From: Escherichia sp. MOD1-EC7003
GTDB taxonomy: Bacteria > Pseudomonadota > Gammaproteobacteria > Enterobacterales > Enterobacteriaceae
Assembly (NCBI RefSeq): GCF_002965065.1
Contig: NZ_PTRE01000008.1
Coordinates: 1-38,875 of the forward strand
Length of the DNA stretch: 38,875 nucleotides
Direction of reading: 5' to 3'
The notes under the pieces: generated by a model
What the model was told of the DNA's origin: nothing
The model's database searches: none
What the model saw: only the letters and a program-made list of their open reading frames with translations
Made by a program: the position numbers and the translations under genes
Shown here: piece by piece, positions 7,149-21,440 of the stretch
How positions within the stretch are numbered: the stretch's first letter is position 1
Layout of the letters: each line of letters starts with the position of its first letter

Positions 7149-9095
7149 ATGAATATTTTAGGTTTTTTCCAGCGGCTCGGTAGGGCGTTACAGCTCCCTA
7201 TCGCGGTGCTGCCGGTGGCGGCGCTGTTGCTGCGATTCGGTCAGCCCGATTTACTTAACGTTGCGTTTATTGCCCAGGCGGGCGGCGCGATTTTTGATAA
7301 CCTCGCATTAATCTTTGCCATCGGCGTGGCATCCAGCTGGTCAAAAGACAGCGCTGGTGCCGCGGCGCTGGCGGGGGCGGTAGGTTACTTTGTGTTGACC
7401 AAAGCGATGGTCACCATCAACCCAGAAATTAATATGGGTGTACTGGCGGGTATCATTACCGGTCTGGTTGGTGGCGCAGCCTATAACCGTTGGTCCGATA
7501 TTAAACTGCCGGACTTCCTGAGCTTCTTCGGCGGCAAACGCTTTGTGCCGATCGCCACCGGCTTCTTCTGCCTGGTGCTGGCGGCCATTTTTGGTTATGT
7601 CTGGCCGCCGGTACAGCACGCTATCCATGCAGGCGGCGAGTGGATCGTTTCTGCGGGCGCGCTGGGTTCCGGTATCTTTGGTTTCATCAACCGTCTGCTG
7701 ATCCCAACCGGTCTGCATCAGGTGCTGAACACCATCGCCTGGTTCCAGATTGGTGAATTCACCAACGCGGCGGGTACAGTTTTCCACGGTGATATCAACC
7801 GCTTCTATGCCGGTGACGGCACGGCGGGGATGTTCATGTCTGGCTTCTTCCCGATTATGATGTTCGGTCTGCCGGGCGCGGCACTGGCGATGTACTTCGC
7901 AGCACCGAAAGAGCGTCGTCCGATGGTTGGCGGTATGCTGCTTTCTGTTGCTGTTACCGCGTTCCTGACCGGTGTGACTGAGCCGCTGGAATTCCTGTTC
8001 ATGTTCCTTGCACCGCTGCTGTACCTCCTGCACGCACTGCTGACGGGGATCAGCCTGTTTGTGGCAACGTTGCTGGGTATCCACGCGGGCTTCTCCTTCT
8101 CTGCGGGGGCTATCGACTACGCGTTGATGTATAACCTGCCAGCGGCCAGCCAGAACGTCTGGATGCTGCTGGTGATGGGGGGTGTCTTCTTCGTTATCTA
8201 CTTCGTGGTGTTCAGTTTGGTCATTCGCATGTTCAACCTGAAAACGCCGGGTCGTGAAGATAAAGAAGACGAGATCGTTACTGAAGAAGCCAACAGCAAT
8301 ACCGAAGAAGGTCTGAATCAACTGGCGACCAACTATATTGCTGCGGTGGGTGGTACTGACAACCTGAAAGCAATTGACGCCTGTATCACCCGTTTGCGCC
8401 TGACCGTGGCTGACTCAGCTCGCGTCAATGATGCGATGTGTAAACGTCTGGGGGCTTCTGGGGTAGTGAAACTGAACAAACAAACTATTCAGGTGATTGT
8501 CGGCGCGAAAGCGGAATCCATTGGCGATGCGATGAAGAAAGTTGTTGCCCGTGGTCCGGTAGCAGCTGCGTCTGCTGAAACTGCGCCTGCAACTGCCGCT
8601 CCTGTAGCAAAACCGCAGGCTGTACCAAACGCGGTCTCTGTCGCGGAGCTGGTATCGCCGATTACCGGTGATGTTGTAGCCCTAGATCTGGTTCCTGACG
8701 AAGCCTTCGCCAGCAAAGCGGTGGGTGACGGTGTGGCGGTGAAACCGACGGATAAAATCGTTGTATCACCAGCCGCAGGGACAATCGTGAAAATCTTCAA
8801 CACCAACCACGCGTTCTGCCTGGAAACCGAAAAAGGCGCGGAGATTGTTGTCCACATGGGTATCGACACCGTGGCGCTTGAAGGTAAAGGCTTTAAACGT
8901 CTGGTGGAAGAGGGCGCGCAGGTTAGCGCAGGGCAACCTATTTTGGAAATGGATCTGGATTACCTGAACGCAAACGCACGCTCGATGATTAGCCCGGTGG
9001 TTTGCAGCAATATCGACGACTTTGGCGGTCTGATCATTAAAGCTCAGGGCCATGTTGTGGCGGGTCAAACGCCGCTGTATGAAATCAAAAAGTAA
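7149..9095 (+). CDS. nagE: N-acetylglucosamine-specific PTS permease, EIICBA
   Basis: Imports GlcNAc and phosphorylates it to GlcNAc-6-P at the inner membrane. The 648-residue protein has a membrane EIIC domain (about residues 1-370), an EIIB domain with the phosphorylated Cys412 in DACITRLR, and a C-terminal EIIA domain of the glucose type with the phosphorylated His569 in VVHMGID. An Ala/Pro-rich linker (about residues 475-500) joins B and A. The start is supported by AGGGGGAATAAG just before the ATG. Transcription is divergent from nagB and ends at the strong terminator at 9144. Confidence 0.98.
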   Translation: MNILGFFQRLGRALQLPIAVLPVAALLLRFGQPDLLNVAFIAQAGGAIFDNLALIFAIGVASSWSKDSAGAAALAGAVGYFVLTKAMVTINPEINMGVLAGIITGLVGGAAYNRWSDIKLPDFLSFFGGKRFVPIATGFFCLVLAAIFGYVWPPVQHAIHAGGEWIVSAGALGSGIFGFINRLLIPTGLHQVLNTIAWFQIGEFTNAAGTVFHGDINRFYAGDGTAGMFMSGFFPIMMFGLPGAALAMYFAAPKERRPMVGGMLLSVAVTAFLTGVTEPLEFLFMFLAPLLYLLHALLTGISLFVATLLGIHAGFSFSAGAIDYALMYNLPAASQNVWMLLVMGGVFFVIYFVVFSLVIRMFNLKTPGREDKEDEIVTEEANSNTEEGLNQLATNYIAAVGGTDNLKAIDACITRLRLTVADSARVNDAMCKRLGASGVVKLNKQTIQVIVGAKAESIGDAMKKVVARGPVAAASAETAPATAAPVAKPQAVPNAVSVAELVSPITGDVVALDLVPDEAFASKAVGDGVAVKPTDKIVVSPAAGTIVKIFNTNHAFCLETEKGAEIVVHMGIDTVALEGKGFKRLVEEGAQVSAGQPILEMDLDYLNANARSMISPVVCSNIDDFGGLIIKAQGHVVAGQTPLYEIKK

Positions 9096-9182: not shown

Positions 9183-10463
9183 TTACATTGGGAAGATAAA
9201 AACAGCGCCTGCGCAAAGCGCCAGAATACGGATGAGATACATGGGGATGGTGAAAATCCAAAATTCGGACATTTTATATTTACCCATTCCCATAATCATT
9301 GCTGGCATCCCGTCGATAGGCATATAGCCGCCGTTCCAGCCTGATATCGTTATCGCGACTGCGGCCGCCATCGGGCTGATACCTAACCCTGTACAAGCGG
9401 CAATGGCAATAGGGCCGAAAATGAAAATAGAGCCTATTGTTGAGCCGGTGAAGGTAGAGCAAGTACTCGTTAACAACGCCAGGACAAGAATAAAGATAAA
9501 CGGTGAAACGTTTGTTCCCAGTACCCCGGCCACAGCGTTACCGATCATCGCCGTCACACCTGTGCCAGCGAGTGCATCAGCAACACCGATAACACATGCC
9601 GTCATGATAATTACCGGAGCGCCCATATTATCGCGCACTTCCTTAAAGTCGAGGACGCCGATAATAAGTAAAAATCCCCCCGCCAGGCCTGGAATGATAT
9701 AAGCAATATCGCCCAGAGTACTGATAAGCATCATGCCAACGACGCTGACGAAAAAAGCGCCGACGGTGCATTTTTCCTTCCAGGCAGGAAGAACATCTGC
9801 TGCGTTTACTGATTGCGAGCCATCATTCTCAACGGTATCCGCAGTAGGATGGGTGGGTAAAAAGCGGTAAGCAATTAAACTCCATGCAAAATATGCCGCT
9901 GACATAATTAGGTTAACCAGGGCAAATTTGATCATCGAAATTTCCTGGTTGATACCTGATGACTGCAATACGGATACAGTGACACCAAAGAGTAACGCCA
10001 CATTAATCGGAATTAGTGGGTGATTAGTGGCAAAACCTAAAGGCATGACAAGTTTTGAGGTCGGTAGCTTCTGGCTATAAGGCAGGGATGCGATAAGCGA
10101 CAGGATTAGTACGTAATATCCCGTCGCACCTGTACCCGCAAGGCTCGCGCCAAGCATAACGATCATCAGCAACAGTATATAGCTTTTAAAACCCCCGCGA
10201 TTCAGATGTGACATCATCGCGGTTTTAATGCCCATGATAAGTTGTGTTTTTTGCAGTCCAGCCATTACCACCATAAAACCAGCAAGCATAATAACTGTTG
10301 AGTTTACAAAGCCAGCGAAGGCCTGTTGGATGGTGGATACCTTGCATAACACCAGCAATAAACACGCAAGCAGTGGCGGCGCGCCAAAGGGCATTTTGTC
10401 CGACATGATCAGCACGATCATCAGAACCAGTATTCCTAGCGCCAACATCATATCCATTGTCAT
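9183..10463 (-). CDS. SLC13/anion-transporter-like inner-membrane permease
   Basis: A 426-residue polytopic protein with roughly 11-12 hydrophobic segments. The overall pattern, including an N-terminal scaffold followed by GFVNSTVIMLAGFMVV and a C-terminal GGYMPIDGMPAM, is that of the SLC13/CitMHS ion-transporter superfamily, whose members carry mono- to tricarboxylates and other organic anions. I chose the ATG at 10463 because AGGAGAG lies seven bases upstream; the frame is open further but would then overlap the yhcH-like gene by more than 200 bp. It is the last gene of the six-gene operon and lies 13 bp after the yhcH-like gene. An anionic substrate would suit the rest of the cluster, but the substrate cannot be read from sequence. 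Confidence 0.85.
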   Translation of the reverse strand: MTMDMMLALGILVLMIVLIMSDKMPFGAPPLLACLLLVLCKVSTIQQAFAGFVNSTVIMLAGFMVVMAGLQKTQLIMGIKTAMMSHLNRGGFKSYILLLMIVMLGASLAGTGATGYYVLILSLIASLPYSQKLPTSKLVMPLGFATNHPLIPINVALLFGVTVSVLQSSGINQEISMIKFALVNLIMSAAYFAWSLIAYRFLPTHPTADTVENDGSQSVNAADVLPAWKEKCTVGAFFVSVVGMMLISTLGDIAYIIPGLAGGFLLIIGVLDFKEVRDNMGAPVIIMTACVIGVADALAGTGVTAMIGNAVAGVLGTNVSPFIFILVLALLTSTCSTFTGSTIGSIFIFGPIAIAACTGLGISPMAAAVAITISGWNGGYMPIDGMPAMIMGMGKYKMSEFWIFTIPMYLIRILALCAGAVFIFPM

Positions 10464-10476
10464 TTTTTCTCTCCTT

Positions 10477-10947
10477 TTAGGCTTCCAGCATGTCGCGCGG
10501 CACCTTAAAGACCGCTTTGCGTACTGACGTAGCCGCGCCAATCGCGCACAGCGCCTGATGGGGTTCTTCTGGCATAAAGACGGCAAAATCACCGGCGTGT
10601 AGGGTGATGGCGACGTTGTTCTCGGGGAACGGGGCGATAAACAGATCGGGCTTACGTTCTTCATCGCTTTCGCGAGCGATGGGCCGCGTTCCCGCATTAA
10701 TGCCCTCACACCCGGCAATCACCACCTGAATATCGGCCCACAGATGGTGATACTCCGTATGCCGGAGATCGGCGGGCTGCGTGTCTGAAATACCCAGCGT
10801 GCAGAACCACCGACATCCTTCCGGTTGCCAGCGACCATCCTCCCTGGCCGATAACGCCTGTAACGAACACTCCGGGTGCAGCAGAATATTTTTCACGCCA
10901 GCGGGAAGCCCCGCCTGTGACAAATGGTTGAGATTCCCGATAATCAT
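10477..10947 (-). CDS. YhcH/YjgK/YiaL family protein (sugar anomerase-like)
   Basis: A 156-residue cytoplasmic protein of the YhcH/YjgK/YiaL (DUF386) family. The family fold is a cupin-like beta barrel with a metal site; recognisable segments are EYHHLWADIQVVIAG and the C-terminal GDFAVFMPEEPHQALCA followed by VRKAVFKV. The E. coli paralogue NanQ (YhcH) is an anomerase that speeds interconversion of N-acetylneuraminate anomers; other members sit in 2,3-diketogulonate and acid-sugar clusters. The start codon overlaps the stop of the sialidase-like gene by four bases (ATGA), so translation is probably coupled. In this cluster it most likely acts on the ring form of an acidic sugar released or imported by its neighbours; the substrate is inference. 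Confidence 0.88.
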   Translation of the reverse strand: MIIGNLNHLSQAGLPAGVKNILLHPECSLQALSAREDGRWQPEGCRWFCTLGISDTQPADLRHTEYHHLWADIQVVIAGCEGINAGTRPIARESDEERKPDLFIAPFPENNVAITLHAGDFAVFMPEEPHQALCAIGAATSVRKAVFKVPRDMLEA

Positions 10948-12113
10948 GATGCCCGCCCCTTAACCCACTCGGGGGAGATGCGCACGTACTTGATGGCCTG
11001 ACGCCACCAGGTGTAAGCGATATGCAGCGTACCGTCCGGGCTTTGCTTGATGCTGGGATAGGAGAACTCGCGGTTTAGCTTTTCCAGCGAATTGTTAGTC
11101 ATGCAGTAGCCGTCGCCTTCATCGAGATTGCGCTTCCACGGCCAGCTTTTCCCGCCATCGGAAGAAATCGCCACTGTCATCGGCGCGCGCGGGGCACCCC
11201 AGAAAGCGGAGCGTCCGACGGCTGTGGGTTCTTTGCGGCTGTCATCGCCATCGTCGATTTCGTCATACAGCGACGCGCGACGTTCTACTGCGCCTGCTGC
11301 ACTCATCGCGTTGTACACCAGCGCCAGTTCGCCGCTGGCAAGCGTCGTCACCTGAATAGACGAATTGTTGTTAGGCAGTTCAGTTGCTTGCGGCACCGAC
11401 CAGCTCTCGCCGTGGTCCGCAGAATGGCTGATATAGATGTTGTCTGCCCAACGGCTGCGGAAGAGAGCAACCAGCGTACCGTCTTGCAGCATGGTGATAT
11501 TCATATGAACGCAGCCGAGGCTTTGTGGCACCTCGACATCGCGCCAGGAGTGGCCACCATCCGCAGAGATTTTCACCGCGCTGATATCATCATTGCCGAC
11601 CCATTTTTCACCGGGTTGGGTACGGCAATAAAAGACAGGCAGCAGCCAGTTACCGTTATCAAGCACCGTGATCGGCTGGCGAATGAACGTGCCGGGTTTA
11701 TCAAGCAGGGTGGCAATCTCGCCCCAGGTTTGCCCAAGGTCGTGAGACTGACGATAGCGGACGATGGCGGTGTCCTGATTACCAGATATTTGTGCGGTCC
11801 ACAGTAGCCACAGCACGTTATCCGGCGCGAGAAACAGTACTGGGTTCTGCTCTGAACGCGTGTCATCGTGGGAGAGTTTGACCGCATCGCTCCACTGCAT
11901 CCCGCCAGCGGGCAATCGCGATCCCCAGACAGAAATATCGGCAATACCTTCCTGCGTTCCCGCAAACCAGACGCACATTAAAGCGCCATCCGGCAAAGGC
12001 AGAATATTTGCCGCGTGGTTTTGCGGGCAGGATGAGGGCAGCATAGCGGTAAGCACATGCGAATCGTTTTCGGATGGACGGATGACGCCGTCACGAACAA
12101 GGGCTACAGACAT
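10944..12113 (-). CDS. Sialidase-family BNR-repeat glycosidase-like protein, cytoplasmic
   Basis: A 389-residue six-bladed beta-propeller protein of the sialidase / BNR_2 type. Four Asp boxes are visible: SHDLGQTW (residues 123-130), SADGGHSW (183-190), SADHGESW (231-238) and SSDGGKSW (317-324). The C-terminal SYPSIKQSPDGTLHIAYT is typical of this bacterial subfamily. There is no signal peptide, so unlike secreted virulence sialidases it should act inside the cell on an imported small molecule. The start has GGAGT six bases upstream. It overlaps the yhcH-like gene by four bases. Whether it hydrolyses a sialoside, another ulosonic acid or a different glycoside cannot be said: BNR_2 proteins include enzymes of other specificity. 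Confidence 0.87.
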   Translation of the reverse strand: MSVALVRDGVIRPSENDSHVLTAMLPSSCPQNHAANILPLPDGALMCVWFAGTQEGIADISVWGSRLPAGGMQWSDAVKLSHDDTRSEQNPVLFLAPDNVLWLLWTAQISGNQDTAIVRYRQSHDLGQTWGEIATLLDKPGTFIRQPITVLDNGNWLLPVFYCRTQPGEKWVGNDDISAVKISADGGHSWRDVEVPQSLGCVHMNITMLQDGTLVALFRSRWADNIYISHSADHGESWSVPQATELPNNNSSIQVTTLASGELALVYNAMSAAGAVERRASLYDEIDDGDDSRKEPTAVGRSAFWGAPRAPMTVAISSDGGKSWPWKRNLDEGDGYCMTNNSLEKLNREFSYPSIKQSPDGTLHIAYTWWRQAIKYVRISPEWVKGRAS

Positions 12114-12148
12114 AGTTAGACTCCATCTTAAAGTCAGTAATAGATTTA

Positions 12149-12907
12149 TTAATGAGAGTGCGATTCATGCGTTTCGATTAATGTCGAAACTTTTTTATTT
12201 CTTCTTTCACGGATAATATTGAGTGTCTCAACACTTAATGAGAAAAATATCGCGAAGTAGAGATACTCTTTGGCAATATGAATGTTGAGACTATCGGCAA
12301 CCAGCAATACGCCGACAAATAATAAAAAGGTTAACGCCAGTATTTTTATTGACGGCGTGGCGTTAACAAAATCACCAATTGTTTTCGCCGCAAACATCAT
12401 GATGCCGACGGCAATCATTACGGCGGCAATCATGATAAATATATGCTGAGAAAGGCCGACGGCGGTGATCACCGAATCCAGGCTAAACACGATATCGAGC
12501 AGCATTATCTGTACGATGGCACCGCACAGCGACAGCTGCCGAGATCCGCTGCCATGTTTGTCTTCCTGCGCGGGCGACATCTCTTCGCGTATCTCCTGTA
12601 TTGCTTTATAAATCAGGAACAGCCCGCCCCCGAGCAGAATCAACGTGCGGAACGAAATCTCCAGCGCCAGCACGGTAAAAAGCGGCTGGGTAATATGTGA
12701 AAGCCACGCAATGGATATCAGCAATAATATCCGCATAATCATCGCGCAGCTTAAACCCAGTTTACGCGCCATATTTTGTTGTGATAACGGCAGTTTTGCC
12801 ACCACCAGTGAAAGAAAAATAATATTATCCACCCCGAGAATAATTTCCAGAAAGGTGAGGGTAATTAAAGTAAGCCAGATATCTGGCTGTATAAACCACA
12901 GAAACAT
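12149..12907 (-). CDS. TerC/YgdQ-family integral membrane protein
   Basis: A 252-residue protein with about seven membrane spans. The two diagnostic acidic membrane motifs of the TerC family are present: LEIILGVDNIIF (Glu21, Asp27) and LLDIVFSLDSVITAVG (Asp138, Asp144). It resembles E. coli YgdQ in length and pattern. A polar loop around residues 108-125 and a His-containing tail (THESHSH) are cytoplasmic or exposed. TerC proteins are linked to metal export (Alx, manganese) or metallation of exported enzymes. It lies between the aldolase and sialidase genes in the same orientation, 70 bp after the first and 35 bp before the second. Its role in a sugar operon is unexplained. Confidence 0.88.
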   Translation of the reverse strand: MFLWFIQPDIWLTLITLTFLEIILGVDNIIFLSLVVAKLPLSQQNMARKLGLSCAMIMRILLLISIAWLSHITQPLFTVLALEISFRTLILLGGGLFLIYKAIQEIREEMSPAQEDKHGSGSRQLSLCGAIVQIMLLDIVFSLDSVITAVGLSQHIFIMIAAVMIAVGIMMFAAKTIGDFVNATPSIKILALTFLLFVGVLLVADSLNIHIAKEYLYFAIFFSLSVETLNIIRERRNKKVSTLIETHESHSH

Positions 12908-12977
12908 GGGATAATCCTTTAGTCTCTTTATCTAAACTTTACGGCAACACGTTAGCGGGCTGGATAATAGAGTTAAT

Positions 12978-13865
12978 TTAATTAATGTGATAATGACGAA
13001 TAATTTGCTGAATCTCGCCGATCTGTTCAGGCGTGAAATTAACCGCGTAGCGGCTATCGCCCACATCATGCCCCATAAGCTGCAATGCTTTTTTCACTGC
13101 AGCCGGAGAAAACGCTACTTTATAGAGATCGGTACGCAGGCCTGTCACACTCTCCTGTGCCTGATACGATCCTTCAATATCACCGGCATGGAAGCGAGAC
13201 CAGATGGCATTGATTTCTCGCGGCGCGACGTTGGCGAGCCCGGAAATACAGGCTGAACACCCCTCGACAAACCCTTTATGGATCAGTGAGTCCGGGCCGT
13301 TGAGCACATTAAAGCCGTCAATGTCGCGCACAGCATCGAGAAAACCTTTCAGGCTTTCGTAGCTTCCGGCGCTGTCTTTAATCCCAATGATATTGGGATG
13401 CGACGCCAGAGCGCGCGCGGTTTCCGGCTGGATCGTATTGCCGGTGCGGGCCGGGATGTTATAGAGAAACATGGGAATGCTCAGCGCGTCGGCAATTGCG
13501 GTGTAATGGGTAATCAGTTCTTCCTGTTTCAGCGGTACAAAGTACGGGGTAATGACCGACACCGCATCTACGCCCAGTTTCTCAATTTGCTGGCCCAGAC
13601 GAATCGTTTCGCGCGTCGAGATCTCGCCAATGTGCGCCACGACCGGTGCGCGACCAGCCACTTCATCCACGCAGGTTTGCGTAACGTTGAGCTTTTCCTG
13701 CTCGTTCAGCACAAAAAACTCGCCGTTGGTACCGCCGCAAAAAATCGCGTTACCGGCTTCCAGCTGGCGATTCACCTGTGCTTTTAACGCCGGGAGATTC
13801 AGGCCGCCGGTCGCGGTAAACGGGGTGACGATGGCGGTTAATACACCTTCAATGGTTTTCGGCAT
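12978..13865 (-). CDS. DapA/NanA-family pyruvate aldolase or lyase
   Basis: A class I aldolase of the dihydrodipicolinate synthase / N-acetylneuraminate lyase superfamily, 295 residues, TIM barrel. The Schiff-base lysine is Lys163 in IIGIKDSAG and the proton-relay tyrosine Tyr135 in FLYNIPARTG; GGTNGEF is the carboxylate-binding loop of pyruvate. All catalytic elements are intact. The family cleaves or forms 2-keto-3-deoxy acids using pyruvate; specificity (lysine biosynthesis, sialic acid, KDG, 2-keto-4-hydroxy acids) cannot be assigned from these motifs. Genomic context argues for catabolism, not lysine synthesis. The start has AAGGAG eight bases upstream, three bases after the alcohol dehydrogenase stop. 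Confidence 0.9.
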   Translation of the reverse strand: MPKTIEGVLTAIVTPFTATGGLNLPALKAQVNRQLEAGNAIFCGGTNGEFFVLNEQEKLNVTQTCVDEVAGRAPVVAHIGEISTRETIRLGQQIEKLGVDAVSVITPYFVPLKQEELITHYTAIADALSIPMFLYNIPARTGNTIQPETARALASHPNIIGIKDSAGSYESLKGFLDAVRDIDGFNVLNGPDSLIHKGFVEGCSACISGLANVAPREINAIWSRFHAGDIEGSYQAQESVTGLRTDLYKVAFSPAAVKKALQLMGHDVGDSRYAVNFTPEQIGEIQQIIRHYHIN

Positions 13866-13868
13866 GAT

Positions 13869-15026
13869 TTACTCCTTAAAGGGATGTTGCGGAAACAGCG
13901 TTTGGTAAATGGCCTGCACGTCCTGCTGATTCAGTTGGCAGGGCGCATTGTTCATCAGGCGCTTCACGTTCAGTGCCGCCGCGCTAAGAGACGCAATATC
14001 TTCTGGCGGTACGCCAAGATCCGCGAGATTGTTGGGTAGCTTGAGTTGATTGACTAACGCCTGTAGCCAGGCCACCAGAGTGTGAGATTTCTCTTCCGCG
14101 CTCAGGGAGGTATCCGCGTCAGGAATGCAATCCCAGACCTGGGCAAATTTCTCAACCGCGTAAGGGCGTACGACGGCCATGCATGGCGCCAGCAAGATGG
14201 CATTCGCCACGCCGTGTGGCAGATGATATTTGCCGCCTAATGGGTAGGAGAGCGCATGAACCAGGTGCGTGCCCGCATGAGTAATCGTCACGCCGCCATA
14301 GTAAGACGCCCACAGCATTTCCAGTTTTGCGCGCAGATCCTGAGGATCGTTCACGGCGGTCTGAATATGCCGGAAAAGCTTACTTAGCCCAGTCAGGGCC
14401 GCGTTATCGCTGACCGGGTTTGCCACGGTCGAGGTAAAACACTCCAGTAAGTGGCAAAGCGCGTCAATGCCTGTGGACGCTGCAATATGTGCGGGCATGC
14501 TGGTGGTCAGCTCGGGGAAAAGTGCCACGTAGTCCGGTAACAGCACCGGAGAAATAATACCCACCTTCGTGCTTTGTTCAGGGATCGCCAGAATCGCATT
14601 CGGCGTGGCTTCTGAGCCGGTACCAGCGGTTGTAGGAATCAACCATGATTGCACCCGCTGCGTCGGTTTTTCACCGGCAAGCAGCGCATCCAGCCCCGGT
14701 GAATCGGGGTGACAAAGCACCGACAACAGTTTTGCGACATCCAGCACGCTGCCGCCGCCGACGCCCACCACTACATCAAAAGACGCGTTGCCGAGGGTCG
14801 CCATTTGCTGGCGCACATCATGATGCGTAGGCTCTGCGGGCACATTATCGATAACGCTCACCTGCGGGCAGTGCTTTTCGAGTAAGGCGCGAATCTGCTG
14901 CACACCGTTAAGCTGTGCAATATTGCTGTCTGTGACCAGCAGCAATTTTCTGATGCTGGGTAAGAGCGACGTCAGGGAAGGGATAGCGCCTGCGCCGCTC
15001 AGTATCGTGCTATTGATAATTACCAC
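13869..15026 (-). CDS. Iron-containing (group III) alcohol dehydrogenase
   Basis: A 385-residue NAD(P)-dependent dehydrogenase of the iron-containing ADH family. Cofactor motifs GVGGGSVLD (residues 88-96) and TTAGTGSE (132-139) are clear, and the four metal ligands can be placed as Asp188, His192, His257 and His271 (the last two in HALSYPLGG and YHLPHG). It starts with GTG; AGAGAGG upstream on the minus strand supports this choice. It is the first gene of the six-gene operon, with a palindromic operator-like site 19 bp upstream. It could oxidise or reduce an aldehyde or hydroxy acid made by the aldolase next to it; the substrate is unknown. Confidence 0.9.
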   Translation of the reverse strand: MVIINSTILSGAGAIPSLTSLLPSIRKLLLVTDSNIAQLNGVQQIRALLEKHCPQVSVIDNVPAEPTHHDVRQQMATLGNASFDVVVGVGGGSVLDVAKLLSVLCHPDSPGLDALLAGEKPTQRVQSWLIPTTAGTGSEATPNAILAIPEQSTKVGIISPVLLPDYVALFPELTTSMPAHIAASTGIDALCHLLECFTSTVANPVSDNAALTGLSKLFRHIQTAVNDPQDLRAKLEMLWASYYGGVTITHAGTHLVHALSYPLGGKYHLPHGVANAILLAPCMAVVRPYAVEKFAQVWDCIPDADTSLSAEEKSHTLVAWLQALVNQLKLPNNLADLGVPPEDIASLSAAALNVKRLMNNAPCQLNQQDVQAIYQTLFPQHPFKE

Positions 15027-15044
15027 AAATAACCTCTCTTCTGG

Positions 15045-15060
15045 TGATTGAATTCAATCA
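15045..15060. promoter_or_regulatory. Palindromic operator candidate 1 (alcohol dehydrogenase side)
   Basis: TGATTGAATTCAATCA is a perfect 16-bp palindrome, 18 bp upstream of the GTG start of the alcohol dehydrogenase operon. A near copy (14 of 16 bases identical) occurs at 15151-15166 in front of the divergent operon. The pair is probably bound by the DeoR-family regulator encoded at 17412; this is inference. Confidence 0.6.
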
Positions 15061-15150
15061 TTCAAAATGCCGTAGTCTATATGACATGGCCTAATTTTAT
15101 AATTTATTGGAGTGATTAATAACTTGAACTTGCTCACATTTAATCAATTG

Positions 15151-15166
15151 TGATTGAATATAATCA
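15151..15166. promoter_or_regulatory. Palindromic operator candidate 2 overlapping a -10 box (kinase side)
   Basis: TGATTGAATATAATCA has arms TGATT and AATCA and matches operator candidate 1 at 14 of 16 positions. It contains a consensus -10 box TATAAT (15159-15164) reading toward the kinase gene, 29 bp before its start. No good -35 is present at 17 bp, so the promoter may need an activator or be weak. A protein bound here would block the -10. The overlapping dyad AATCA-ATTG-TGATT at 15142-15155 could extend the site. Confidence 0.6.
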
Positions 15167-15195
15167 TTGTCATCATAAAACAACCCGGAGTGATG

Positions 15196-16431
15196 ATGGA
15201 AAAGGGAATCAGTAAGCCGAGCATTCTCGTCGTTGCCGATGATTTCACGGGAGCCAACGACGCGGGGGTAAGCCTGGCGCAGGTGGGGCATACGGTTGAT
15301 GTGGCCTTTGAAATGCCTTATCGCGGAGATGCCAGCATATGGGTGATTAATAGCGACAGCCGGGCGATGGATCCTAAGCTGGCGGCGATGAAAATAACCT
15401 CGCTGATGAGTCATCTCCCTCTGGCGAATAACCCGCCGCTCGTGATTAAAAAGATAGATTCCACGCTGCGAGGAAATATCGGCGCAGAAATTGAAGCCCT
15501 GATGAAGGCATGCGGTATAACGGGCGCAGTGGTTGCCCCCGCATTTCCTCAGGCGGGAAGGACCACAGTGGCCGGTGAGTGTTGGGTAAACGGCGTGCGG
15601 ATAACGGAAACCGAGTTTGCCAGCGATCCGAAAACCCCGGTATTGAGTGCCCGAATTGCGGACATCATCCGGTTGCAGACGACCATTCCAAGCCAACCCG
15701 TTACGGTTTCCGACCTCAGTCATATGTCTTGTGAGCAACCGTGGATTGGCGTGATGGATGCGCAGACGGACAACGACCTGGATCGCATCGCTACCGCCGT
15801 GATGCAGATTAAACAACCGCTGCTGCTGGTCGGCTCTGCAGGTATTTGTGATGCCGTTGCCCGGCGCTCGGCGATTATGCCGCCACGTACCGCGCTGGCC
15901 ATTATTGGTTCAATGAGCGAAATCGCTCAACGGCAGATCGCCACTCTGCGTTCGCATCCACGTATCACACAGATATACGTTGATGTGGAACACATTCTGT
16001 CAGGCGACGTCAGTGGCTATGACGCGCGTATTGTGCAGGCCTTACAGAAAGGCGACCACTGCATTGTCCACACCTGTAACGATTCTGTAGCAAGGCACCA
16101 GATCGACACCCTTTGCCAGCGATGGCAGATGAGTCGCACAGCGCTTGGGGAAAAAATTTGCCGGTTTCTTGGTGAGCTCACCCGGCAGGTTCTGCTTCGC
16201 GCAATGCCCGATGCGCTCTATCTCTCTGGTGGTGATGTCGCAATGGCAACAGCCAGTGCGTTAGGCGCGACCGGTTTTCGTATTACAGGGAAGGTGGCGC
16301 AATGCGTTCCATATGGTCACTTTCTGGGTGGCATCTGGTCCCGCCCGGTGATGACGAAAGCGGGAGGGTTTGGCGATGAGACCACGTTGCGTCAGGTTCT
16401 GAATTTTATCGAGGAGAAATGTAGTGAATAA
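15196..16431 (+). CDS. dtnK: Four-carbon acid-sugar kinase (DUF1537 / DtnK family)
   Basis: A 411-residue ATP-dependent kinase. The N-terminal substrate domain begins with the family signature VVADDFTGANDAG, contains KIDSTLRGN, and the C-terminal nucleotide domain has LSGGDVA and the final TKAGGFGDETTL. Characterised family members phosphorylate D-threonate, L-threonate, D-erythronate or 3-oxo derivatives at O-4. Pairing with a PdxA2 gene, as here, is the arrangement of the D-threonate/D-erythronate route to dihydroxyacetone phosphate, so I use the symbol dtnK with reserve. GGAG at 15187-15190 fits best with the ATG at 15196; the ATG at 15193 is the alternative. Its last eight bases overlap the next gene. 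Confidence 0.85.
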   Translation: MEKGISKPSILVVADDFTGANDAGVSLAQVGHTVDVAFEMPYRGDASIWVINSDSRAMDPKLAAMKITSLMSHLPLANNPPLVIKKIDSTLRGNIGAEIEALMKACGITGAVVAPAFPQAGRTTVAGECWVNGVRITETEFASDPKTPVLSARIADIIRLQTTIPSQPVTVSDLSHMSCEQPWIGVMDAQTDNDLDRIATAVMQIKQPLLLVGSAGICDAVARRSAIMPPRTALAIIGSMSEIAQRQIATLRSHPRITQIYVDVEHILSGDVSGYDARIVQALQKGDHCIVHTCNDSVARHQIDTLCQRWQMSRTALGEKICRFLGELTRQVLLRAMPDALYLSGGDVAMATASALGATGFRITGKVAQCVPYGHFLGGIWSRPVMTKAGGFGDETTLRQVLNFIEEKCSE

Positions 16432-17410
16432 TATTATTGCGGTAACGATGGGCGACCCGGCGGGTATTGGCCCGGAGATCATTATTAAATCTCTGAGCGA
16501 AGCCGGGCTTGCTGGTGCCCCGGTGGTGGTGGTGGGCTGTGTGCGTACGCTGAGACGTATTATGGCGATGAATATTACGCCGCAGGCCGAGTTACGGATC
16601 ATTGAAAAGGTGTGTGACGCCAACTTTGCTCCGGGTGTGATTAACGTGATGGATGAGCCTCTGGCTAATCCCGATGCGCTGACACCCGGTGTGGTACAGG
16701 CTGTGGCGGGCGATTTAGCGTATCGATGTATCAAACGTGCAACGGCCCTGGCCTTATCAGGCGAGGTGAAAGCCATTGCCACTGCGCCACTGAATAAAGA
16801 AGCGCTGCATCTTGGTGGGCATAACTATCCGGGGCATACGGAATTGCTGGCCCATCTTACCGGCAGCAAAGAGTACGCGATGGTGCTCTATACCGATAAG
16901 CTCAAGGTTATCCATATTTCGACCCATATTTCACTGCGTAAATTCCTGGATACCTTGAATGGTGAAAGGGTCAAAACGGTTATTCGTGTTGCGAACCACT
17001 TCCTGAAACGTGTCGGCATTGAGCGTCCGCGTATTGCCGTGGCAGGTGTAAATCCACATGCAGGGGAACACGGTTTATTCGGCACTGAGGAACTCGAGAT
17101 TATCGCGCCTGCGATTGAGGCAATGCAGGCCGAGGATATTGATGTTACTGGCCCATGCCCGCCAGATACCGTGTTTATGCAGTGCCATGAAGGGCTATTC
17201 GACATGGTAGTGGCTATGTACCACGATCAGGGGCATATCCCGTTGAAATTGCTTGGATTTTATGATGGGGTAAATATCACTGCCGGGCTGCCATTTATTC
17301 GCACTTCTGCCGACCACGGCACCGCATTTGATATTGCCTGGACAGGAAAAGCCAAGTCTGAGAGCATGGCAGTTTCCATCCAGTTAGCAATGCAGATTTC
17401 ACGAGAATAA
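16424..17410 (+). CDS. pdxA2: PdxA2-type 4-phospho-D-threonate dehydrogenase
   Basis: A 328-residue NAD-dependent dehydrogenase of the PdxA family. Visible signatures are [11 protein letters not shown] at the N-terminus, [24 protein letters not shown] (metal His), [12 protein letters not shown] and [10 protein letters not shown] (metal His). True PdxA acts on 4-phosphohydroxy-L-threonine in vitamin B6 synthesis; PdxA2 proteins encoded beside DUF1537 kinases oxidise and decarboxylate 4-phospho-D-threonate to dihydroxyacetone phosphate and CO2. The gene starts with GTG, overlaps the kinase stop by eight bases and has GAGGAG seven bases upstream, which indicates coupled translation. The B6 gene pdxA is elsewhere in E. 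coli (with ksgA), so this is the catabolic paralogue. Confidence 0.88.
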
Positions 17411-17411
17411 A

Positions 17412-18173
17412 ATGAAGGGATATAACCGGTTAGAGCAGATAATGGATTACCTGAAAAGCCATAATCTGGTCACCGTTGATGAGCTGGTGGTGGTAACCAA
17501 TGCGTCGCCGGCCACGATTCGTCGAGATCTGATAAAACTCGATGAGCAGGGTGTTATCAGCCGTACACACGGCGGTGTGACCCTCAACCGGTTTATTCCT
17601 ACCCAACCGACTACCCATGAGAAAATGCAGCGCAGCCTGGCGGAAAAACATGCCATCGCCAGCGCAGCAGCATCAATGGTCAAAGCGGGGGATTCCGTCG
17701 TCCTTGATGCTGGTACGACAATGATTGAACTTGCGCGGCAGATTACGCATTTACCACTTCGCGTGATCACTAGCGACCTGCATATCGCGCTTTTTTTGGC
17801 TGAATTCAAGCAGATTGAAGTGACGATTATCGGTGGACGTATCGACGACTCCAGCCAGTCCTGCATTGGCGAACATGGTCGTAAATTGCTGCAAAATACC
17901 TGGCCGGACGTGGCATTTTTAAGCTGTAACAGTTGGGATCTTGAAAAGGGAATTACAGCACCCACGGAAGAGAAAGCTGCACTAAAACGCGATCTTATCG
18001 CGCATGCTTCGCGCAAAATTCTCCTGGCCGATAGCTCAAAATACGGCTCATGGTCGCTGTTTAATATCGCGCATCTTAATGAACTGACAGAGATTATTAC
18101 GGATAATCAGCTTGATGGGCAGACGCGAAGAACGCTGGCGTCCTTGTCGACGCGTTTAATCATAGCGGATTAA
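17412..18173 (+). CDS. DeoR-family transcriptional regulator
   Basis: A 253-residue repressor-type protein. Residues 1-60 are the DeoR winged helix-turn-helix: [20 protein letters not shown] followed by DLIKLDEQG and the hinge RTHGGVTL. The C-terminal sugar-phosphate-sensing domain has [13 protein letters not shown] and [21 protein letters not shown], as in GlpR-like isomerase-fold sensors. It starts two bases after the pdxA2 stop, so it belongs to the kinase-dehydrogenase operon and probably regulates itself. DeoR proteins usually respond to a phosphorylated intermediate, which would fit the phospho-acid made by the kinase. Its likely targets are the two palindromes at 15045 and 15151. Confidence 0.9.

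Positions 18174-20111: not shown

Positions 20112-21440
<1,329 letters not shown>

Follow-up and report, generated by a model that had tools for sequence, protein, structure and literature searches.

A candidate DeoR-controlled regulon for 3-deoxy-2-heptulosaric acid in a nine-gene block between nagE and glnS of Escherichia

D-Threonate is reportedly broken down by a kinase of the DUF1537 family, DtnK, acting with PdxA2, a pathway credited, with the recognition of the DUF1537 kinase family, to Zhang et al. in 2016. Its product is dihydroxyacetone phosphate (DHAP). Ndeh et al. are said to have described, in 2017, how Bacteroides thetaiotaomicron degrades the plant pectin rhamnogalacturonan-II (RG-II), with glycosidases depolymerizing the polymer. 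That degradation (PMC7939467, the available part of which does not deal with what becomes of the sugar acid within cells) is a proposed source of 3-deoxy-D-lyxo-hept-2-ulosaric acid (DHA). DtnK and a 4-hydroxythreonine kinase, STM0162, are reported in the available part of PMC10971088. Here, we analyze a nine-gene block in a stretch of 38,875 nucleotides (the window; contig NZ_PTRE01000008.1, positions 1 to 38,875, forward strand, assembly GCF_002965065.1) from Escherichia sp. MOD1-EC7003, which we consider, by a narrow measure, probably to be one DeoR-controlled regulon for 3-deoxy-2-heptulosaric acid, most likely DHA of RG-II, free or as a small glycoside.

The block shares with the D-threonate pathway a kinase and a 4-phosphate dehydrogenase that pass curated models, and differs in that D-threonate is predicted to arise intracellularly, through an aldolase and an alcohol dehydrogenase (ADH), rather than by import only. 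With nan catabolism (NanA, YhcH/NanQ and sialidase) it shares the order of ketosidase, ring opener and pyruvate aldolase as well as the fold families; it differs in a DapA-type Arg in the aldolase, a BNR protein without a visible signal peptide, a predicted C4 acid product instead of N-acetylmannosamine and a DeoR regulator with its own operator. The same block is listed as GR 6 of the extraintestinal pathogenic Escherichia coli (ExPEC) strain BEN2908 (PMC12928451, 2026), the available text of which gives open reading frame (ORF) similarities, mentions a similar Sinorhizobium meliloti cluster, suggests that the kinase pair serves pyridoxal phosphate synthesis, and gives no pathway or substrate for the whole. 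A first-pass annotation made from the letters of the window had known of no described pathway joining all these parts; none is assigned in that text, but the region itself was already in print.

Gene content and proposed pathway

Nine ORFs lie between nagE and glnS, all open and in the order and on the strands first annotated, as two divergent operons with sites in the spacer between them:

9183..10463, minus strand: SLC13/CitMHS-type permease, predicted importer (PF03600, 74 bits; start from a 1281-bp E. coli homologue)
10477..10947, minus strand: YhcH/DUF386 protein, predicted ring opener (anomerase; PF04074, 88 bits)
10944..12113, minus strand: BNR_2 sialidase-fold protein without visible signal peptide, predicted cytoplasmic ketosidase
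12149..12907, minus strand: TerC family membrane protein, accessory, outside the conserved core (PF03741, 157 bits)
12978..13865, minus strand: dihydrodipicolinate synthase (DHDPS)-family aldolase with a DapA-type Arg, Arg140 (PF00701, 210 bits; active-site comparison)
13869..15026, minus strand: iron-containing ADH (Fe-ADH), predicted C4 aldehyde acid reductase (PF00465/PF25137)
15045..15060, no strand: operator TGATTGAATTCAATCA, a perfect palindrome, ahead of the minus-strand operon
15123..15140, minus strand: CRP-like site, word ATGTGAGCAA (word kept in 46/55 divergent spacers)
15151..15166, no strand: operator TGATTGAATATAATCA, ahead of the plus-strand operon
15196..16431, plus strand: DtnK, predicted D-threonate kinase (DUF1537; NF047819, 533 bits, cut-off 450)
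16424..17410, plus strand: PdxA2, predicted D-threonate 4-phosphate dehydrogenase (NF002891, 679 bits, cut-off 583)
17412..18173, plus strand: DeoR-family regulator, presumed reader of both operators (PF00455, PF08220)

Permease and kinase starts were taken from the annotated E. coli homologue; their longest ORFs were over-extended. Pfam calls agreed with the annotation for all nine genes (CitMHS/SLC13-type permease, DUF386/YhcH, BNR_2, TerC, DHDPS, Fe-ADH, SBD_N plus NBD_C [DUF1537], PdxA and DeoR). The aldolase, ADH and permease scored below every curated NCBIfam cut-off and YhcH above a general-family cut-off only. The annotated E. coli homologue record names the genes singly and leaves the pathway unnamed.

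In the proposed pathway, the permease would import DHA (step 1), the cytoplasmic sialidase-fold protein would hydrolyze the ketosidic bond where DHA is still linked (step 2) and YhcH would open the pyranose ring (step 3). The DHDPS-family aldolase would then release pyruvate together with D-threuronate, which matches aspartate semialdehyde in size and is likewise a C4 aldehyde acid (step 4); the Fe-ADH would reduce D-threuronate to D-threonate (step 5). DtnK would form D-threonate 4-phosphate (step 6), and PdxA2 would oxidize and decarboxylate it to DHAP (step 7). DHA would thus yield pyruvate, DHAP and CO2, with the NAD(P)H spent in step 5 balanced by step 7. We infer steps 1 to 5 and the substrate; steps 6 and 7 are predicted activities that follow from family assignment. 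A single predicted pathway joining both operons is well supported by the sequence comparisons below, and for DHA as its specific substrate we put the chances at about even. The findings bear out the chain sketched in the first-pass annotation (an anionic, ulosonate-type substrate, ring opening, pyruvate release, an ADH step and a C4 acid passed through the kinase and PdxA2); its substrate class, ulosonic acids, fits and is sharpened here to one precise compound, predicted to be DHA.

The flanking genes are nagE (7149-9095) and glnS (from 18395). In E. coli K-12 MG1655, nagE adjoins glnS at a distance of 202 bp and the site is empty, as the first-pass annotation had stated for K-12. The block was matched in 1044/5426 complete E. 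coli genomes (ecoli_genomes), always at 90 to 95% DNA identity and in 1043 with 80% or more of the query covered, and a full-length BNR match was found in 2/12 genomes of the window's genus, its own genome counted.

Linkage and shared operators across genomes

A collection in which each of 84,980 species is represented by a single genome (genome_contigs) was searched with the BNR protein alignment. The best 80 of 576 relatives were kept as named loci (L numbers), and their ORFs were labelled by profile hidden Markov models built from the window proteins and their matches. Aldolase, Fe-ADH, DUF1537 kinase (DtnK) and PdxA2 are called the four core genes. All four were present in the fetched flanks of BNR in 50/80 loci. 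For the count by genome, L119 was left out (79 of 80 examined) and the other 29 genomes were searched with PdxA2 only and chosen stretches fetched, with no genome-wide search for the aldolase or ADH. The full core was found in 75/79 BNR genomes: beside BNR in 52 (L089 and L133 included, with genes further along the same contig), clustered on another stretch in 22, and split two and two over two contigs in one (L110). In L069, L071 and L072 (complete or long contigs), the core cluster lies 350 to 400 kb from BNR; in L095, the BNR contig begins 542 bases before BNR, so the other stretch may be the same locus.

The first-pass annotation had held that a minus-strand operon often occurring elsewhere without the kinase and PdxA2 genes would speak against one system, and these counts favor one. 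Its view of all nine genes as a unit stands for the core; it does not stand for TerC and the SLC13 permease, which are lineage-specific and replaced elsewhere. A chance neighborhood was rejected given the core in 75/79 BNR genomes and the shared operators described below.

The loci span Enterobacterales, Pasteurellaceae, Gilliamella, Bacillaceae, Lucifera, Formivibrio and several alphaproteobacteria, and gene order varies among named, plasmid and other loci. The core was found in Pectobacterium, Dickeya, Erwinia, Pantoea and Gilliamella and on rhizobial plasmids; these taxa and rhizobia are linked to plants or pollen. In an order-level sample of 394 genomes (apparently one draw; cut-offs of E<1e-150 for BNR, E<1e-85 for aldolase and E<1e-60 for DtnK), BNR was present in 13, aldolase in 16 and DtnK in 18, DtnK accompanying BNR in 13/13 and aldolase in 16/16. 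Genome G236 (L046) carries, within its locus, a divergent aldolase that falls under the cut-off.

Two exact TGATTN6AATCA palindromes lie in the divergent spacer of the window, one for each operon, where 0.03 would be expected in the whole window. Every divergent locus had at least one exact operator (54/54, window included; 52 distinct spacers, as a few loci are near-duplicates), 16 having two or more, and 71/78 exact sites in 1.05 Mb fall inside 19 kb of divergent spacers. An unlinked SSS-BNR operon of Pantoea has an exact site upstream in 8/8 loci, and in the seven Pantoea for which the core region was fetched, an exact operator is also present in that second region (7/7). DeoR accompanies the operator in Enterobacterales loci and is presumed to read both operators. 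A longer operator form has three matches in the window's genome, two of them in the block; the third (G000:C7:1712-1728, L187) lies outside it. Both operons are thus predicted to be controlled as one unit in Enterobacterales. Induction of the operons by unrelated substrates had been named earlier as evidence that would separate them; on sequence grounds, the shared operators join them in Enterobacterales.

Active sites and substrate

No signal peptide is visible in the BNR protein, which has, by structure comparison, a sialidase propeller fold (structure built on 53 BNR rows, the window plus 52 of the 80 loci). Foldseek matches include KDNases, enzymes acting on the nonulosonic acid KDN; glycoside hydrolase family GH143 has no entry among the listed fold matches, which is not evidence of its absence. 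As for the catalytic Tyr of GH33 sialidases, whose active site also comprises an Asp and an arginine triad, Tyr352 is invariant in the 53 rows and falls close to Tyr370 of 2ber, a placement by match offset and not by residue-level alignment; from the offset of this match to a Y370G mutant entry, Tyr352 is probably the sialidase nucleophile. YhcH scored 85.9 bits against the N-acetylneuraminate anomerase model (cut-off, 160) and passed the general YhcH/YjgK/YiaL model (93.3 bits; cut-off, 45.5). Since YhcH is described in the available text of PMC8141875 as an anomerase whose ring opening supplies the sialic acid aldolase, the same role is likely in this block, where by analogy it would open the ring of a ulosonate.

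The aldolase carries Lys163, Tyr135 and Arg140, aligned with DapA Lys161, Tyr133 and Arg138. In DapA, Arg138 binds the carboxylate of the C4 aldehyde acid aspartate semialdehyde, and the triad is Thr44-Tyr107-Tyr133. Among 33 aldolase rows (the window plus 32 of the 55 found), 28 have Arg and 1 has Lys at the Arg138 position, and Phe replaces Tyr107 and Asn replaces Thr45 in 29 rows each. In the same genome, what we take from sequence and neighboring genes to be dapA (L190) encodes Arg138, and what we take to be nanA (L191) encodes Leu142. The DapA-type Arg in place of the NanA Leu means that the aldolase should, by its sequence, release a C4 aldehyde acid. The best NCBIfam model was dapA (190 bits; cut-off, 206), and the 2-keto-4-hydroxyheptanedioate aldolase model was also matched (147 bits, under its cut-off); both are models of C7-diacid enzymes. 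Scores were lower against nanA (114.5 bits; cut-off, 382) and PRK04147 (149 bits; cut-off, 281). A true DapA paralogue was rejected on the 190 bits and on the Tyr107-to-Phe and Thr45-to-Asn changes in 29/33 rows, and a canonical sialic acid operon on the scores of aldolase and YhcH under the nan-model cut-offs and the Arg in place of the NanA Leu. Aldolases of Azospirillum, Agrobacterium and S. meliloti retain the Arg. Another DHDPS subgroup (YHIPQ motif, without Arg138) occurs in some alphaproteobacterial clusters (L108, L121, L122, L128, L050 and L052) and is possibly a non-orthologous replacement.

For the lower steps, both NCBIfam equivalog models were passed with the scores listed above. 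The best models for the Fe-ADH (ErcA, 221 bits; lactaldehyde reductase, 217 bits; 4-hydroxybutyrate dehydrogenase, 213 bits) all fell far under their cut-offs, so the family gives no direct hint of its aldehyde substrate. In a Formivibrio metagenome-assembled genome (MAG), the cluster includes a gene for triose-phosphate isomerase (L105:6162-7028), which fits DHAP as the end product. Near the Rhodopila cluster lies a tartronate-semialdehyde-reductase-like gene (L108:17343-18239; 277 bits, cut-off 341).

Reduction of a C4 aldehyde acid by an ADH gives a tetronate, and here the D-threonate kinase and dehydrogenase come next, so the substrate of the aldolase would be a 3-deoxy-2-heptulosaric acid. 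With the D-lyxo configuration (C4 left, C5 left and C6 right in Fischer projection), C3-C4 cleavage and reduction would give D-threonate, HOOC-C2(left)-C3(right)-CH2OH; because cleavage erases the configuration at C4, the D-xylo isomer would serve equally. We propose, tentatively and with somewhat less than even confidence, that the block is a complete bacterial route for DHA, a rare sugar known in plants only from RG-II. On this view, a sialidase-like ketosidase and an anomerase would be tied to D-threonate breakdown by way of a DapA-like aldolase and D-threuronate; about one-fifth of the complete E. coli genomes in the search would carry the route, as would bacteria of gut, plants and soil from two phyla, and enterobacteria in the gut could live on RG-II sugars that other bacteria set free. 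A literature search on DHA catabolism, threuronate and related terms found no paper titled on that subject among the matches listed. If true, the proposal would provide a function for several conserved genes that lack an assigned substrate in more than 1000 complete E. coli genomes and many plant-associated bacteria and a concrete answer to intracellular DHA breakdown; it would also suggest a natural source of D-threonate and tie ExPEC region 6 to dietary pectin rather than to vitamin B6.

Counterevidence, alternatives and variable neighbors

Several results weigh against a DHA regulon. The core was incomplete within the fetched sequence of 4/79 genomes (L106 and L120, both MAGs; L111; L112). 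Four of the 33 aldolases, all alphaproteobacterial, have no Arg at that position and fall into a different DHDPS subgroup, as do those of Roseomonas and Rhizobium leguminosarum (2/7 rows), and 17 of the 75 genomes with a complete core rest, by score, on a weak aldolase subgroup (69 to 119 bits, alphaproteobacterial DHDPS). Outside the divergent set, an exact operator was found in 10/42 named loci, seven Pantoea among them, and none in the Bradyrhizobium or Bacillus swezeyi loci. As 32 of those 42 loci lack it, control must differ in other lineages, where FadR/GntR and IclR types are among the regulators. A search of the divergent spacers for a KdgR-like pectin operator returned nothing better than 3 mismatches, and no RG-II-specific glycosidase was found among the neighboring genes scanned with Pfam and NCBIfam, which were chosen genes and not all neighbors. 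A short-chain dehydrogenase/reductase (SDR) gene, not accounted for by the proposed pathway, lies directly downstream of BNR in 49/80 loci. In the order-level sample, six genomes with a weaker BNR (E 1e-59 to 1e-68) had no DtnK at E<1e-60. The regions of two of these were fetched: L047 has BNR near a more distant DtnK, PdxA2 and an aldolase, with no Fe-ADH, and L048 has BNR and Fe-ADH only. Four order-level genomes carry the core without BNR, three with a 2-hydroxyacid dehydrogenase and a major facilitator superfamily (MFS) permease and one with TRAP and YhcH, so that several entry compounds may feed into the core.

This last result bears on an explanation that we regard as unlikely, yet with real weight, in which the pathway logic is the same and another compound converges on a C7 3-deoxy-2-ulosaric or related acid, DHA being one or none of the natural sources; examples are a heptaric acid dehydrated by an enolase-superfamily enzyme and a 2-hydroxy acid oxidized by a dehydrogenase. 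It would account for the partners of the BNR-less core, which are either a 2-hydroxyacid dehydrogenase plus a D-galactonate-type MFS permease or a TRAP-TAXI transporter plus YhcH, and for an L-talarate/galactarate-dehydratase-like cluster gene in six loci, all alphaproteobacterial. The sialidase-fold BNR and YhcH of the window point instead to a ketosidically linked, ring-forming ulosonate, and we know of no natural source of heptaric acid, which counts against that example. In L182, L184, L185 and L135-L141, the core stands next to a 2-hydroxyacid dehydrogenase and a D-galactonate-type MFS permease, an arrangement that suggests a second entry compound into the same lower pathway; no BNR was found at E 1e-30 in the genomes of L182, L184 and L185.

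Improbable is a pair of independent neighbors, the plus strand serving free D-threonate and the minus strand an unrelated ulosonate. One of the 18 order-level DtnK genomes (G248) has DtnK-PdxA2-DeoR without aldolase, as such neighbors would predict; co-occurrence, clustering at second sites and the shared operators favor one regulon.

A shade more improbable still is an accessory operon of the nan kind for the catabolism of sialic acid or of compounds of the KDN or 3-deoxy-D-manno-oct-2-ulosonic acid (KDO) type, its aldolase acting on a C8 or C9 ulosonate. The sialidase fold, the YhcH and DHDPS families and the KDNases among the Foldseek matches would suit it. Cleavage of C8 or C9 ulosonates would give C5 or C6 sugars, which would not feed a D-threonate kinase, and KDO was rejected as substrate on this chemistry, its aldol cleavage giving a C5 sugar. 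Also against it are the DapA-type Arg where the presumed NanA has Leu, the 114 bits under a nanA cut-off of 382 and the presumed nanA that the genome already holds, with a DUF386/YhcH-family gene on the same contig.

It is very improbable that the block serves vitamin B6 salvage, with DUF1537-PdxA2 recycling 4-hydroxy-L-threonine to pyridoxal phosphate and the remaining genes unrelated. In its favor, the DUF1537 protein STM0162 phosphorylates 4-hydroxy-L-threonine (PMC10971088, available part) and PMC12928451, in its available part, applies that reading here, but kinase and dehydrogenase pass D-threonate models and are tightly linked, with shared operators, to the aldolase, ADH, permease and BNR genes in a sugar-acid catabolic layout with DeoR.

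The transporter varies between loci and is of SLC13, SSS, ABC, TRAP or Nramp-like type, with an SSS symporter directly upstream of BNR in 54/80 named loci. TerC occurs in 6/80 named loci (only Pseudocitrobacter, Klebsiella and Kluyvera), besides Escherichia and one further relative, and always with the SLC13 permease; SLC13 without TerC was seen in two Pasteurellaceae-type loci (L046 and L116).

Predicted metal transporters recur, as TerC in the Escherichia/Klebsiella type and as Nramp-like proteins in three Bacillota loci (L110, L114 and L115; L115:8596-9951). A calcium/sodium antiporter is present in L046 (9777-10739) and L116, and the block permease matches the citrate-transporter family CitMHS. 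The recurring metal transporters might mean that the substrate is taken up as a metal chelate or that metal has to be pumped out. The SDR oxidoreductase (L070:11155-11850 and homologues) follows BNR/YhcH and is missing from the Escherichia type. Split or shortened frames in single genomes (TerC in L031; DtnK and BNR in L099) are possibly decaying copies or sequencing errors. Downstream of glnS, positions 20179-20748 of the window are repeated DNA that appears as a repetitive ORF.

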